NCBI RefSeq assembly: GCF_000763295.1
Contig: NZ_JRJE01000005.1
Span: 1 to 64,000 of the forward strand
DNA length: 64,000 bases
From: Thalassospira australica
GTDB lineage: Bacteria; Pseudomonadota; Alphaproteobacteria; Rhodospirillales; Thalassospiraceae
Direction of reading: 5' to 3'
Positions within the stretch are counted from its first letter, which is position 1, and each line of letters starts with the position of its first letter. Positions 50,790-55,784 of the stretch are shown here, piece after piece. Under the pieces are notes generated by a model, which saw only the letters and a program-made list of their open reading frames with translations, searched no databases and had not been told where the DNA came from. Both the position numbers and the translations under genes were made by a program.

Positions 50790-50944
50790 GTTTTCTCCCG
50801 GTACATGGCGACTTGGGTGACGCACGCCATGCCACATGCATTTTGTTTTTTGGAATGTGACCAAGTTACCCCTGTCGATGCCGTCTGTCTTGCGGTAATC
50901 TGCCAATATATATCGCAAACAGGACAGTTTTGGCCCATTGCACC

Positions 50945-51745
50945 ATGCCCCATATCCTGAACACGTTCGAAGATCGACCAGAACATCACAATCCGATCTC
51001 CCGCCCCAAGGAACTGCCCCGGGCTGTTTATGTCCGGGTTAGCGATATGCCCGCTGGCCATCACGTGGCAACCCACAGCCATGACTGGAACCAACTGTTA
51101 TATGCCATTGAAGGCACCATGACCGTTGTCACCGAAGCAGGCATGTGGATCGTTCCGCCACAACGTGCCGTCTGGGTGCCACCGCATACCCAGCATGCTG
51201 TCGGTTGCACCGGTTTTACCCGGGCACGCCATCTTTACATTGGTCGCGACGTGGCGACCAACCTGCCAGACCAATGCATGGTGCTTGAAGTCAGTCCTCT
51301 TTTGCGCGAACTGATCCGGGCCGCAACGGAGATTCCGATTGATTATGATGAAGACGGCGAAGAAGGCCGCCTGATCCGTGTCCTGCTTGATCAAATCAAG
51401 GCACCGGATCAGGACAAGCTTCATCTTCCTGCACCCAAGGACGCAAGGCTTTCGCGGATCTGCGATCATTTACAAGGCGACCCGGCAGACAACCGAACCC
51501 TTGACGACTGGGCAACGATTTGCGGGGCATCCAGCCGAACACTTGCACGGCTTTTCCAACGCGAAACCGGCATGCCTTTTCGCGAATGGCGGCAGAAACT
51601 TCGTCTGCTGTATGCACTTGAAAAACTGGCACATGACCGCCCGGTTACGGAAATCGCCCTTGACCTTGGTTACGAAAATCCTTCGGCCTTTATCGCGATG
51701 TTCCGCAAGGCAACCGGCCGCACACCGGGCGGATATTTCCGCTAG
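50945..51745 (+). CDS. AraC-family regulator with N-terminal cupin, divergent from the MFS gene
   Basis: The 266-residue protein has a cupin ligand-binding domain (HVATHSHDWNQLLYAIEGTM) and a C-terminal double HTH at about 170-260 (LDDWATICGASSRTLARLFQ, then VTEIALDLGYENPSAFIAMF). This matches the NimR/YdeO type of AraC regulators that control an adjacent MFS exporter. The target is inferred to be the gene at 49512-50789, 155 bases away. ATG 50945 (MPHILNTFEDRPEHH) is preferred to 50930. Confidence 0.85.
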   Translation: MPHILNTFEDRPEHHNPISRPKELPRAVYVRVSDMPAGHHVATHSHDWNQLLYAIEGTMTVVTEAGMWIVPPQRAVWVPPHTQHAVGCTGFTRARHLYIGRDVATNLPDQCMVLEVSPLLRELIRAATEIPIDYDEDGEEGRLIRVLLDQIKAPDQDKLHLPAPKDARLSRICDHLQGDPADNRTLDDWATICGASSRTLARLFQRETGMPFREWRQKLRLLYALEKLAHDRPVTEIALDLGYENPSAFIAMFRKATGRTPGGYFR

Positions 51746-51869: not shown

Positions 51870-52430
51870 TTAGTGATCGGTCTCTTTATGTGTCTTCAAA
51901 GGCGGCAAGATATCGTGTTCCGGCTCTGTATTGACATCATAACGACGTGTCACTGCATCATGCGTGGGTTTTGGCATTTGTTGGCGCACACACATGTTAT
52001 GAACCTGTACCGTTAAATCCAGTGACCAGGCCCTTTTCTGTTCATCAGTTTTGATTTCTGTCCCGACCGCTTCTTTCCGGAAACTGGCCGCACGCATATT
52101 TTCATTGCGTACTGAGCGTATCCCTTCGAGGACGGTCATCATTTCAACAACTGATTTCAAAACATCCACACTGCTGTCGATGGTTTTGCTCACCGCTTGC
52201 GTGGCTTGTTCATACTGCTCAATCATTGCCCAATCACTTGCGTGATCCGGGGTATTTCCCCGCACAGGTGATTTGTCATGCCCGGACAAACGATTTTTCC
52301 ACGCATGATGATTCGGCTCCCCCGTTCGGCGTCCTGGCAGGATATGGCTGAATTCACCCCAATCGTATCCGATATCAGCGAAGTTAACCTCACCCTTTCG
52401 CCGTGCCGGATTAATTTCGAATACATGCAT
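51870..52430 (-). CDS. Uncharacterised protein H1 with DWGE-SHILPGRR-GEPNH motif (module copy 1)
   Basis: The 186-residue protein has no signal peptide or membrane segment. Residues 8-48 contain RRKGEVN, then DWGEFSHILPGRRTGEPNHH followed by AWKNRLSG. A middle helix reads VDVLKSVVEMMTVLEGIRSV followed by RNEN, and a third short block is WSLDLTVQVHNM. All three blocks recur in the same order in the product of 53913-54416, so the two are paralogs. I do not recognise the family. GGGAGAG stands six bases before the ATG at 52430. It is divergent from an AraC-type regulator that is itself duplicated next to the second copy. Confidence 0.65.
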   Translation of the reverse strand: MHVFEINPARRKGEVNFADIGYDWGEFSHILPGRRTGEPNHHAWKNRLSGHDKSPVRGNTPDHASDWAMIEQYEQATQAVSKTIDSSVDVLKSVVEMMTVLEGIRSVRNENMRAASFRKEAVGTEIKTDEQKRAWSLDLTVQVHNMCVRQQMPKPTHDAVTRRYDVNTEPEHDILPPLKTHKETDH

Positions 52431-52765
52431 TTTTTCTCTCCCTGAGAAAATTTCGCACTCCGTAAACATCCTGTCTGTTAAACCGCATCGCGTTCAGACA
52501 ATGATTGTCATTATGCACCGGCCGTATAGCACAAATTACGCATATACGATGCACCCTGCATCCACAATACTTTGCAATCCGTCCAGAAATGCTGCGAAGG
52601 GCTTGCCTTGTGGTGGGCCTATACCAAAGGGAAATTGATAATTTTCTTAATTAGCGCTATCAAATACGTGCACGACATGTAGTCAATGCGGCCAGGTTAT
52701 TTCGGAAAAAGATTTCCAAAAAGAATAACCATGAGGTACCCGGCTGCCGAACTGGGGGACCAGAA
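52431..52765. promoter_or_regulatory. Divergent control region of module copy 1
   Basis: This 335-base, AT-rich gap between H1 and its AraC regulator contains the Fur-like box at 52497-52515, a TTGATA/TATCAA inverted pair near 52635-52665 and CGTCCAGAA, a nonamer also present in the gap of module copy 2. Confidence 0.5.
52497..52515. promoter_or_regulatory. Fur-like box between H1 and its AraC regulator
   Basis: GACAATGATTGTCATTATG matches the classic 19-base Fur consensus GATAATGATAATCATTATC at 15 of 19 positions, and its centre AATGA-TTG-TCATT is a perfect inverted repeat. Confidence 0.5.
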
Positions 52766-53821
52766 ATGGCATCGGAATTAAGCTCCGAGCGAACAAGTAG
52801 TTCGTTTTTTACAGTAAATAACCTTCCACACCACGAGCGCTATGATATTTGGCGGGGCTCTATTGATGTCCTGTGTGGGGTTGAAGCCGAGAAAACAATT
52901 CGCGACAACAACTTCAAAGCCGAAATTGAATCCCATCTTCTGGGGTCATTGATGCTGATGGAGGTTACCTCTCTTGCACAGCAGTGGCGACGAACACCGC
53001 AACAGATTGCGCGCAATGACATGGACCATTATTGCGTCAGCATTTTCAAGGAAGGTGACCTTATTTGCGAACACAGCAAAGGCGGCAATCAACTTAAAAA
53101 GGGCGGCGTGGTTGTCTTTGACCTGACTCAGGAATTTGCGACCAAGACCAGCGATCTCAAGGTGACCACCCTGATCATTCCCCGTCCGCTGATCGAAGAT
53201 CTGGTAAATCATCCCGACGATCACAACATGCGCTTCCTCGACCCCAAGTATCCGATGACGCGGATTGTCCATGACAACCTGCTATCTCTTCAGCGCAATA
53301 TGCCAAACCTGTATTTAGGTCAGGCTGCCACGATAGAGAAAACATTGGCAATGCTGGTTGCGAACTGCCTGAACACGGCAAAGGGCGAGACAAGCACAAC
53401 CATTCACCAACGTCAGAACGTGATGAATATGGTCAAGATGCGTCGCTATATCCGCGAGCAACTGGCATCACCAGATTTGACCCCGCGAAAGGTCGCACGG
53501 GACCTCGGCGTATCGCGTTCCAAATTGTATGACTATTTCGCAAGCTATGGCGGTGTTTATCAATATATCCGCAACATGCGCCTACGGCGTGCTGTCTCTT
53601 TGCTGACAGATCCCATGCACAAACATTCTTCGATCTATGACATTTCGCTGGAATGTGGATTTTCCAGTGACGCCAGCTTTATTCGGGCCTTTAAGGAAAG
53701 ATACGAACTCACACCGGGGGATGTCAGAAATGGCCTGTCAAAACAGGAACATGCATCACTTGGTGATCCCTACCAGATAGACACGCGTTATGAAGACTGG
53801 CTGCAAAACCTGATGGTCTAA
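52766..53821 (+). CDS. AraC-family regulator A1 (module copy 1)
   Basis: The 351-residue protein has an AraC-binding-like N-terminal domain (about 15-215; FFTVNNLPHHERYDIWRGSI) and a C-terminal AraC HTH domain (about 225-325) with LTPRKVARDLGVSRSKLYDY and SSIYDISLECGFSSDASFIR, ending IDTRYEDWLQNL. It is paralogous to the product of 54750-55784 along its whole length, including this tail. GGGGGA precedes the ATG. It probably regulates H1 and possibly itself. The ligand is unknown. Confidence 0.85.
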   Translation: MASELSSERTSSSFFTVNNLPHHERYDIWRGSIDVLCGVEAEKTIRDNNFKAEIESHLLGSLMLMEVTSLAQQWRRTPQQIARNDMDHYCVSIFKEGDLICEHSKGGNQLKKGGVVVFDLTQEFATKTSDLKVTTLIIPRPLIEDLVNHPDDHNMRFLDPKYPMTRIVHDNLLSLQRNMPNLYLGQAATIEKTLAMLVANCLNTAKGETSTTIHQRQNVMNMVKMRRYIREQLASPDLTPRKVARDLGVSRSKLYDYFASYGGVYQYIRNMRLRRAVSLLTDPMHKHSSIYDISLECGFSSDASFIRAFKERYELTPGDVRNGLSKQEHASLGDPYQIDTRYEDWLQNLMV

Positions 53822-53912
53822 AAAGCGGACATGTCGAGTATTTGCCTCGCCAAAGAGGAGCCCAAACAAGGCCACTGCGCCACCCATTCCGCAGACCCCG
53901 ACATATACGCCG

Positions 53913-54416
53913 CTACGTTTTATTGAAGTGATGCACTTGCCGAACATTTTCGTTCTGCGGTCGAATGCACCGACCATATGTTTTCGGGACGTTTCCATGA
54001 TCAAGCATCGGCACCCAATCATAGCCCCACATGGTTTGTATTTGCTCGATGACCTCAGCCGACCAGCTTGCCGACTGCGGCACGTGATCGCCATTATCGT
54101 TGCGTTTTGACCGCATCCATTCCAGCACCTGAATCACCCGCGCAAGTGAACGCAGGGTATCCCTGCAGCCCACAGAAACTTTGCCCGGTGGACGTTCCAA
54201 TCGCTCAAATGTAATGCGATCAGTCCGGGTGTCGGGTTTTTCATGCTCGGATGAAAGATCCAATGGCAATAAAAGACGGTTGTCCAAAGCCCGATGATTG
54301 GGTTCCCCGACCCGTCTTCCTGGCAAGATGTGACTGTTTTCACCCCAATCACGACCATGCCCCGTGCAGTTCTTCTCACCTCCACGACGCAATGGTGGCG
54401 TGTCGATAAAATCCAT
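53913..54416 (-). CDS. Uncharacterised protein H2 with DWGE-SHILPGRR-GEPNH motif (module copy 2)
   Basis: The 167-residue protein is a paralog of H1. It has RRGGEKN, then RDWGENSHILPGRRVGEPNH followed by RALDNRLL at about residues 10-50, the middle helix RDTLRSLARVIQVLEWMRSK followed by RNDN, and the block SWSAEVIEQIQTM. Identity is high only in these blocks, so the copies are old. No membrane segment or signal peptide is seen. GGGGGAG stands five bases before the ATG at 54416. It ends 91 bases after A1 and is divergent from A2. Family unknown. Confidence 0.62.
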   Translation of the reverse strand: MDFIDTPPLRRGGEKNCTGHGRDWGENSHILPGRRVGEPNHRALDNRLLLPLDLSSEHEKPDTRTDRITFERLERPPGKVSVGCRDTLRSLARVIQVLEWMRSKRNDNGDHVPQSASWSAEVIEQIQTMWGYDWVPMLDHGNVPKTYGRCIRPQNENVRQVHHFNKT

Positions 54417-54749
54417 ATTCTCCCCCAAAGAAAATATCGCCTAACACTGATAAAATCACCCCCCTTGTTTTTGTTTTGTTGGGCGGGCTGTCACAATTCT
54501 ATCAACCCTGTTTATCACGCCCGGTTCGAGGCCAATATGCAGAACGTCCAGAAGAATGTGCAATCAATCCAAATCAACCATAAGCAACGGCCTTTGCGAG
54601 GTTCGCGACAATATTTCAAGAAGAAACAATGCTTTCGCAGAACATGAAATTTTACTAAAATAATGCGTCTGCCATCGGCAGACTGTGAATTGCAGCATAG
54701 CTCAATCAGTTATTGCCGTTATAAGCAGGGAAAATTGGGGGCGACTGAT
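54417..54749. promoter_or_regulatory. Divergent control region of module copy 2
   Basis: This 333-base gap between H2 and A2 shares CGTCCAGAA with the gap of copy 1 but lacks a clear Fur-like box. Its plus-strand part is AT-rich near 54640-54660. Confidence 0.4.
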
Positions 54750-55784
54750 GTGTCTGATCCGAGCAAGCGCACATTCTTTACTGTAAATGACTTGCCCATG
54801 TCACAACGCTATGACGTTTGGCAAAACAGCATCGATTGTATCTTCGACGTCGAAACAACACCCGAAATCCGCAAGAACAAATTTTTTGCAACACTGGAAG
54901 CTGACCTGGTCGGATCAATGATGCTAGCGCGGACGAAAAGCACGCATCAATTCTGGTCGCGCACGCCATCTGCCATTGCAGCAGACGGGATGGACCACTA
55001 CATGCTGCAATTCTACTACAGCGGTGGGGCCAGCTCTGATCAGGGTAAGGACGGAAGTGAAATCGCACCCGGCGGCCTGATGTTTCAGGACCTTTCGCAG
55101 ACGGCAAGAGCGACGACAAGTGATTTTGATAACCTTGTCATCATTGTGCCACGGGATTTGCTCGAAGGCAGATTGGTCCTTCCCGAAGATCATAACATGC
55201 GTTTTCTTGGAAACAGTGACCCGATGGTGCGCATTCTGGCCGATCAGATTGTTTCACTTAAGAAAAACGCCCCATACCTTTTGCCCGAACATGCCAGCAC
55301 CCTTGAGCACACATTTGCCGAAACGCTGGCCTCCTGCCTGAATTCCGCACATGGGCAAACATCAAGTTCATCCCACCGCAGACAAAACCTTGAAACGATG
55401 ATCTCGATCCGGCGCTATTTTCGACAGAACTTCGCCTCACCCGATCTGACACCTGACATCGCCGCCAGAGACCTGGGGTTATCACGCTCCAAGCTGTATC
55501 AACTGTGCGAAGATCAGGGCGGAGTTTATCAATATATTCGCGACCTGCGCCTGCGCCACGCCATGTCTATCCTGTGCGATCAGCAAAACCGCGACAGACC
55601 GCTTTATGACATTGCACTGGAATGTGGTTTTTCCAGCGACGCCAGCTTTATCCGGGCCTTTCGTGGAAAGTTTGACATCACCCCAGGCGACATTCGCCGC
55701 GGCCACAGCCCCAAACGCGAAGATGGCGCACCAATCGCAGATCACATCGACACCCGATATGAGAAGTGGCTGCATACGTTGTAA
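54750..55784 (+). CDS. AraC-family regulator A2 (module copy 2)
   Basis: The 344-residue protein parallels A1: TFFTVNDLPMSQRYDVWQNS at the start, EDHNMRFLG in the middle, LTPDIAARDLGLSRSKLYQL and LYDIALECGFSSDASFIRAF in the HTH region, and IDTRYEKWLHTL at the end. The start is read as GTG 54750, with GGGGG eight bases upstream, because it aligns with A1; an in-frame ATG at 54663 would add 29 residues without a counterpart. It probably controls H2. Cross-regulation with A1 is possible. Confidence 0.83.
   Translation: MSDPSKRTFFTVNDLPMSQRYDVWQNSIDCIFDVETTPEIRKNKFFATLEADLVGSMMLARTKSTHQFWSRTPSAIAADGMDHYMLQFYYSGGASSDQGKDGSEIAPGGLMFQDLSQTARATTSDFDNLVIIVPRDLLEGRLVLPEDHNMRFLGNSDPMVRILADQIVSLKKNAPYLLPEHASTLEHTFAETLASCLNSAHGQTSSSSHRRQNLETMISIRRYFRQNFASPDLTPDIAARDLGLSRSKLYQLCEDQGGVYQYIRDLRLRHAMSILCDQQNRDRPLYDIALECGFSSDASFIRAFRGKFDITPGDIRRGHSPKREDGAPIADHIDTRYEKWLHTL

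Follow-up and report, generated by a model that had tools for sequence, protein, structure and literature searches.

Diverged copies of an AraC/XylS-type regulator and orphan-protein gene pair in Thalassospira share a candidate tandem operator

The first 64,000 nucleotides of a Thalassospira australica contig (NZ_JRJE01000005.1; hereafter the window) contain two adjacent units of the same layout, each with a gene for an orphan protein (H1, H2) divergent from a gene for a predicted AraC/XylS-type regulator (A1, A2). We found that most of the H genes read in this genus carry a tandem direct-repeat operator, mostly at a fixed spacing from a promoter-like element, and that this operator occurs together with A. 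Control of H by A through this operator appears very probable to us. The fuller explanation, in which the window holds two copies of a regulatory module, with H driven by A, wider targets and, as a guess, H acting as an adaptor, we regard as probable. A genus-specific regulon, in which the duplicated regulators would, through one tandem operator, drive H1, H2, a further small protein (S) and, next to recA, a structured RNA, is put forward tentatively; if true, this would amount to a signalling module that has not been described before and whose outputs are proteins without known relatives. Control by AraC-type proteins is itself ordinary; H, S and the candidate RNA are undescribed in the libraries searched. 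Genomes and loci are cited below by our G and L labels.

H1 (51870..52430, minus strand) encodes a protein of 186 amino acids (aa) with a twin PxRRxxExN repeat, a predicted long helix (residues 63-114) and a W-S...HN-C block, and H2 (53913..54416, minus strand) encodes its 167-aa paralogue. A1 (52766..53821, plus strand) encodes a FeaR-like putative regulator with the tail IDTRYEDWL, and A2 (54750..55784, plus strand) a second one with predicted AraC_binding_2 and HTH_18 domains and the tail IDTRYEKWL. The most likely start of H1 is 52430 (MHVF), where the 186-aa database copy P0001 starts (the mechanical open reading frame, ORF, opens at 52469), and that of H2 is 54416 (MDFI), the start of the database copy P0008. 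The mechanical ORF of A2 opens at 54663; the 333-bp gap given in a preliminary description of this locus implies the GTG at 54750. The starts chosen agree with H-A gaps of 335 and 333 bases, and the four ORFs are arranged as that description had them. H1/A1 and H2/A2 are diverged copies of one divergent gene pair, as it had also proposed: A1 and A2 are 48% identical over 345 residues (E 8e-120), and H1 and H2 are 34% identical (E 4e-25, far beyond chance).

The operator was sought in 24 sequences upstream of H, from 18 loci, and its consensus is TGGAC-N4-TGCA, present twice with a 21-bp period. Twenty of the 24 match the consensus at 22-29 of its 31 positions; in shuffled sequence (200 single-base shuffles each) the maxima are 18-21. 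The distance from the operator to the H start codon is 106-133 bp in 19 sites; for both window copies it is 116 bp. In 16 of the 20, the operator is followed, at a distance of exactly 15 bp, by a TGnTA element resembling an extended -10 (shuffled flanks: mean 0.5, maximum 4/20); G001 lacks it, as do the H1 copies of G015, G016 and G022. In the window, operator 1 (52547..52585, minus strand; two TGGAY-N4-TGCA half-sites with a 21-bp period; E 3.4e-8 in its own genome by the model described below) is followed at 15 bp by the extended -10-like element TGCTATACG of H1 (52523..52531, minus strand), and operator 2 (54533..54571, minus strand; two half-sites with a 21-bp period; model E 1.0e-7) at the same distance by TGATAAACA of H2 (54509..54517, minus strand). 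Both fit a degenerate pattern exactly where no match is expected; since the pattern was drawn from them, this is a measure of rarity and not an independent discovery. As deduced from the -10-like element, the promoter-side half of the operator would lie by the -35 region.

Two other features of these intergenic regions were noticed. Between the operator and A, A1-type genomes have an inverted repeat, CTTTGGTATAG-N15-CTATACCAAAG, with at most two mismatches per half (L046:9589-9625, L054:8998-9034, L052:9030-9066 and L048:9379-9415); it is complete in these A1-type relatives, and the window has a single half of it, CTATACCAAAG, at 52619..52629 (plus strand). In addition, the ribosome-binding site of H (window 52431-52460 and 54417-54445) folds into a small hairpin whose loop is rich in G; this holds for many of the 24 H copies, though not for every one, no control having been folded.

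A sequence-only model of the operator, built from 16 sites, was run over 29 Thalassospira genomes. At E<1e-6 an operator was found next to H in 16 of the 17 genomes that have an adjacent A, in one of five with H and no adjacent A, and in none of seven without H. In four genomes with H and no A (G009, G013, G017 and G019) a direct scan found no operator either, reaching only 14-16 of the 31 positions, which is the level of shuffled sequence. Taken together, the shared operator, its fixed spacing and the co-occurrence, which can be read directly from the genomes, support direct control of H by A at the level of sequence. The preliminary description had suggested a retained pairing of regulator and target. 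The operator adds direct sequence evidence for it; a strict pairing does not hold, as five of the 22 genomes with H lack an adjacent A.

The operator could instead belong to a second AraC gene (50930-51745), or to another regulator, with A merely next door. An ORF of the size of this second gene (262-271 aa, 328 in one case) borders H in all 18 loci mapped, and G008 has an operator without an adjacent A, both as this explanation would predict. However, G009, G013, G017 and G019 have kept a gene of that size (about 266 aa) beside H and lack both A and the operator. Because these four genomes keep the second AraC gene but not the operator, we conclude that the operator goes with A, and consider its assignment to the second gene quite improbable.

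Several observations weigh against control of H by A, or limit how far it can be taken. The consensus and the model were built from these same sites, including the two in the window, and some genomes are nearly identical (G003/G012 and G004/G005), so that the counts are not independent. Per genome, 150 of 1113-2104 first-look candidates were scored, and absence elsewhere is therefore not exhaustive. G001 has A, yet its site is weaker (E 3.7e-4), lies near A and 321 bp from H, and lacks the TGnTA element. The operator of G008 has no adjacent A; a relative with 42% identity lies on another contig. No site was identified for the promoter of A itself, and co-occurrence fits repression as well as activation.

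At the Pm promoter of the TOL plasmid, the proximal half-site of XylS reaches the -35 region. XylS belongs to the same AraC/XylS superfamily as the regulators described here, and its site, as given in two reports, is TGCA-N6-GGNTA-N6-TGCA-N6-GGNTA (PMC4514859, PMC5481539). Both operators consist of two direct repeats with a 21-bp period; they differ in the half-site, which is TGGAC-N4-TGCA here and TGCA-N6-GGNTA for XylS. The targets also differ, being an orphan protein here and a catabolic operon for XylS. The window repeats would resemble XylS-type operators also in their closeness to the -35 region, as far as this can be deduced from the -10-like element. Because of the period shared with XylS and the placement by the -35 region, we propose that dimers of A1 and A2 bind the tandem operator, that the promoter-side half-site overlaps the -35 of a promoter whose -10 is extended (TGnTA), and that bound A would switch on the divergent H gene, in a layout like that of XylS at Pm. 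Binding, activation, a signal, and the assignment of A1 and A2 to one or the other site are the parts of this proposal that we infer. Genus-restricted genes with no assigned function thereby become a testable system, which besides its operator and promoter comprises a regulator and one or more additional candidate targets.

The assignment of A1 and A2 to the AraC/XylS type is based on the predicted C-terminal double helix-turn-helix domain PF12833 (HTH_18), which matched at 57.9 and 57 bits (cut-off 33.6). AraC_binding_2 was found in A2 (35.1 bits, cut-off 27); Pfam did not list this domain for A1. The best NCBIfam model for both proteins was FeaR (NF007243), nearly the whole of which was covered, but A1 (140.9 bits) and A2 (106 bits) score below its curated cut-off of 199. 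The FeaR equivalog is typically found next to an amine oxidase or a phenylacetaldehyde dehydrogenase. Unlike FeaR, neither an amine oxidase nor an aldehyde dehydrogenase was present among the nine window neighbours scanned. The A tree was built from 36 proteins, leaving out those of G020, G023 and G026 and the one at the H locus of G021; in it, the 16 H-adjacent proteins form one clade (support 91/84), which splits into an A2 clade (100/100, seven rows) and an A1 clade (100/99, nine rows), the latter divided again. The closest relative of A found outside the genus, in a class sample of 385 genomes, is in G135 (38% identity).

The genome search found H in 22 of the 29 Thalassospira genomes. A survey of the order found it in 22 of 317 genomes, all of them Thalassospira, and no credible copy was detected outside the genus in the sampled genomes of the order, class (385) or phylum (398), with at most 10 candidates scored per genome in the order survey and at most 8 in the other two. 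Two matches were discarded as chance: one in the class sample (G150, E 8e-4) had in-frame stops and looks unrelated, and one in the phylum sample (G583, E 0.0014, 24 residues) lay in a frame without other H features. H was not found on plasmids or phages. Of 11 named H records retrieved, ten are Thalassospira, and one is a metagenome-assembled genome labelled Rhodospirillales; its contig belongs to G024, which is likewise placed in Thalassospira.

A is adjacent to H in 17 of the 22 H-bearing genomes. The full H-A-H-A order was seen only in the window, the other genomes having H-H-A, H-A-A, H-A or H alone (orders were mapped in 18 genomes and read from coordinates in G020, G021, G023 and G026). 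In the 18 mapped loci, the ORF beyond the one of second-AraC size is always of the size of the window gene for a major facilitator superfamily (MFS) protein (422-498 aa); in relatives both identities rest on size and order, Pfam having been run on the window copies only. In the H tree, window H2 groups with the second copies of G003, G012, G015, G016 and G022 (97/93). Both the A and the H duplications seem, from these trees, older than the split of these species and to have been followed by losses; midpoint rooting and long-branch warnings leave the order of the losses uncertain. With its four genomes that have H but neither regulator nor operator, the locus offers a natural series in which duplication, loss and what looks like a change of promoter can be followed. 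Before H in these four genomes (L051, L053, L056 and L057), a palindrome-like element about CTTATAGGTA(A/G)TAAG was seen by eye, as if H there stood on another promoter.

H had been described as belonging to no recognised family, and our searches agree: Pfam, NCBIfam, PHROGs, PADLOC and PDB sequences gave no significant match, the best being E 0.11 in Pfam (12.8 bits, cut-off 27) and E 0.016 in PDB (8gel, 'sC4'). When about 5.8 billion proteins were searched with a profile, 21 were returned, query rows included. No literature match was found for the motif 'SHILPGRR', and none of the titles listed for Thalassospira and AraC concerns this gene pair. An alignment of 26 H sequences, from which the four most divergent genomes and the H2 copies without repeats were left out, has 14 invariant columns (P8, R10, R11, G13, E14, G25, H29, P32, G33, R34, R35, E38, N40 and S93). 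The shared blocks reported earlier for H1 and H2 stand in refined form: H has an internal repeat, PxRRxGExN ... PGRRxxEPN, whose halves (the RR repeats) lie 24 residues apart and of which SHILPGRR is the second, and the DWGE-SH part is lost in G009, G013, G017 and G019, which retain both RR repeats. The H of G019 has a third such stretch, HPGRRKGD.

H orthologues are under purifying selection. The ratio of nonsynonymous to synonymous substitution rates (dN/dS), computed for 14 H pairs, was 0.09-0.23 in nine orthologous pairs with RR repeats and 0.22 between window H1 and H2; these ratios are rough, as dS exceeds 1 in several pairs, and two pairs were saturated. Together with the A and H trees, they bear out the earlier claim of an old duplication kept under selection. 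One could nevertheless suppose that A and H are unrelated neighbours in a local duplication at a fast-changing spot, with H a decaying lineage-specific gene. H is indeed restricted to the genus and varies in copy number, and the H2 copies of G015, G016 and G022 have lost the RR repeats, with dN/dS of 0.37 and 0.52 in the two repeat-less pairs compared. Yet the spacing of operator and promoter is conserved across diverged copies, the nine repeat-bearing pairs have low ratios, and both duplications seem to predate the separation of the species, which leaves this reading with little probability.

As to the role of H, our leading guess is that it is a cytoplasmic adaptor, whose long helix would oligomerise it and whose flexible N-terminus might use its two arginine-rich PxRRxxExN motifs to bind an acidic nucleic acid or protein. 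We consider this speculative and rather unlikely to be right as stated. In an AlphaFold2 model only the helix 63-114 is fairly confident and the N-terminus is without structure; the model is poor (mean predicted local distance difference test score, pLDDT, 57.6; predicted template modelling score 0.27), which counts against reading much from it. H might instead modulate A, as a co-activator or anti-activator in a feedback loop, and the divergent, adjacent arrangement in most H-bearing genomes would suit this. Selection on H persists, however, without an adjacent A (dN/dS 0.18 for the G013-G017 pair), and we think such a role improbable.

Somewhat less credible still, H could be a secreted or delivered peptide-like effector, given the secretion and surface genes found beside relatives of A. 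In G135 (L197:5707-11097), the relative of A adjoins a Nif11-domain protein, HlyD and an ATP-binding cassette (ABC) exporter with a C39-peptidase domain, and others lie by an RTX-repeat protein (G345), autotransporters (G009, G014 and G027), a type VI/phage spike-like protein (G019) and a secretin (own genome, contig 22). These neighbours were, however, counted without control for how common they are, and other relatives of A lie by a multicopper oxidase/CopB group, Na/Pi cotransporters, an amine oxidase, a glycosyltransferase or a sulfotransferase. H has no signal peptide by eye, and no protein exporter is among the window neighbours scanned. That the pair senses a signal and that H is its effector, as the preliminary description had it, we infer at most, no ligand and no activity of H having been identified here; its observation of the H/A pair is confirmed, and its interpretation is partly supported.

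Beyond H, the same regulators would probably also drive a short structured RNA in the own genome and S in relatives. A third operator of the own genome lies on contig 19 (E 2.6e-5), between nikR and recA and facing away from recA, and behind it comes a block some 110 nt long (L153:5159-5350 for the two together). Site and block recur in five of the 29 genomes, with model E from 8e-6 to 0.004 in the other four. The block aligns well, and the stretch between the site and the recA promoter poorly. No reading frame is kept across copies, Rfam gave nothing up to E 1, the folding z-scores are -2.9 and -2.8 in two of the five copies, and, of the 34 consensus pairs, two have undergone double compensating changes. 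The block is thus conserved, foldable and apparently non-coding, and is a candidate RNA; if real, it would be a new regulated small RNA. Less favourably, folding was computed for the forward strand only, and the spacing from site to -10-like element is, by eye, about one base off that at H. Pairing of this RNA with H leaders was considered and rejected: the window H1 and H2 leaders gave -17.5 and -20.2 kcal/mol, against a median of -24.8 in the leaders of 42 mechanical window ORFs used as controls. The values in G015 were -31.6 for H2 and -24.8 for H1, without a control of their own.

S is a small gene (about 95 aa) adjoining A behind a weak variant of the operator in six genomes (among them L052:7249-7536, L054:7000-7284 and L046:12151-12474). 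Its place in a regulon is weakened by these sites, which match 20-23 of the 31 positions where chance sites reach 20-22, and have model E of 0.0014, 0.035 and 0.87 in three genomes and are unlisted in the other three. S was not found in the own genome. In G008, G016 and G021, relatives of S adjoin homologues of A that have no link to H, and a profile search returned 18 proteins, of which the four with an organism name are all Thalassospira. S is predicted to fold as beta-alpha-beta-alpha-beta, with blocks at pLDDT 92-95. This modelled topology resembles a receiver domain, and many of its weak PDB matches are receivers, but S would make up only half of that fold, and no phospho-acceptor was identified. 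Against PDB there was no significant match by sequence (best E 0.076) or by Foldseek (best E 0.3, to FlhF).

The nine window neighbours scanned with Pfam are NnrU, one gene without a family, a 5'-nucleotidase, the MFS and second AraC genes, EamA, ApbA, a CoA-transferase and an acyl-CoA dehydrogenase. Operator-like matches at eight loci (L158-L163, L165 and L166) fall inside one coding gene, GlnE (by Pfam in one, by look in the rest), and were dropped, and weaker operator-like sites were found at L164, L167, L168 and L169.

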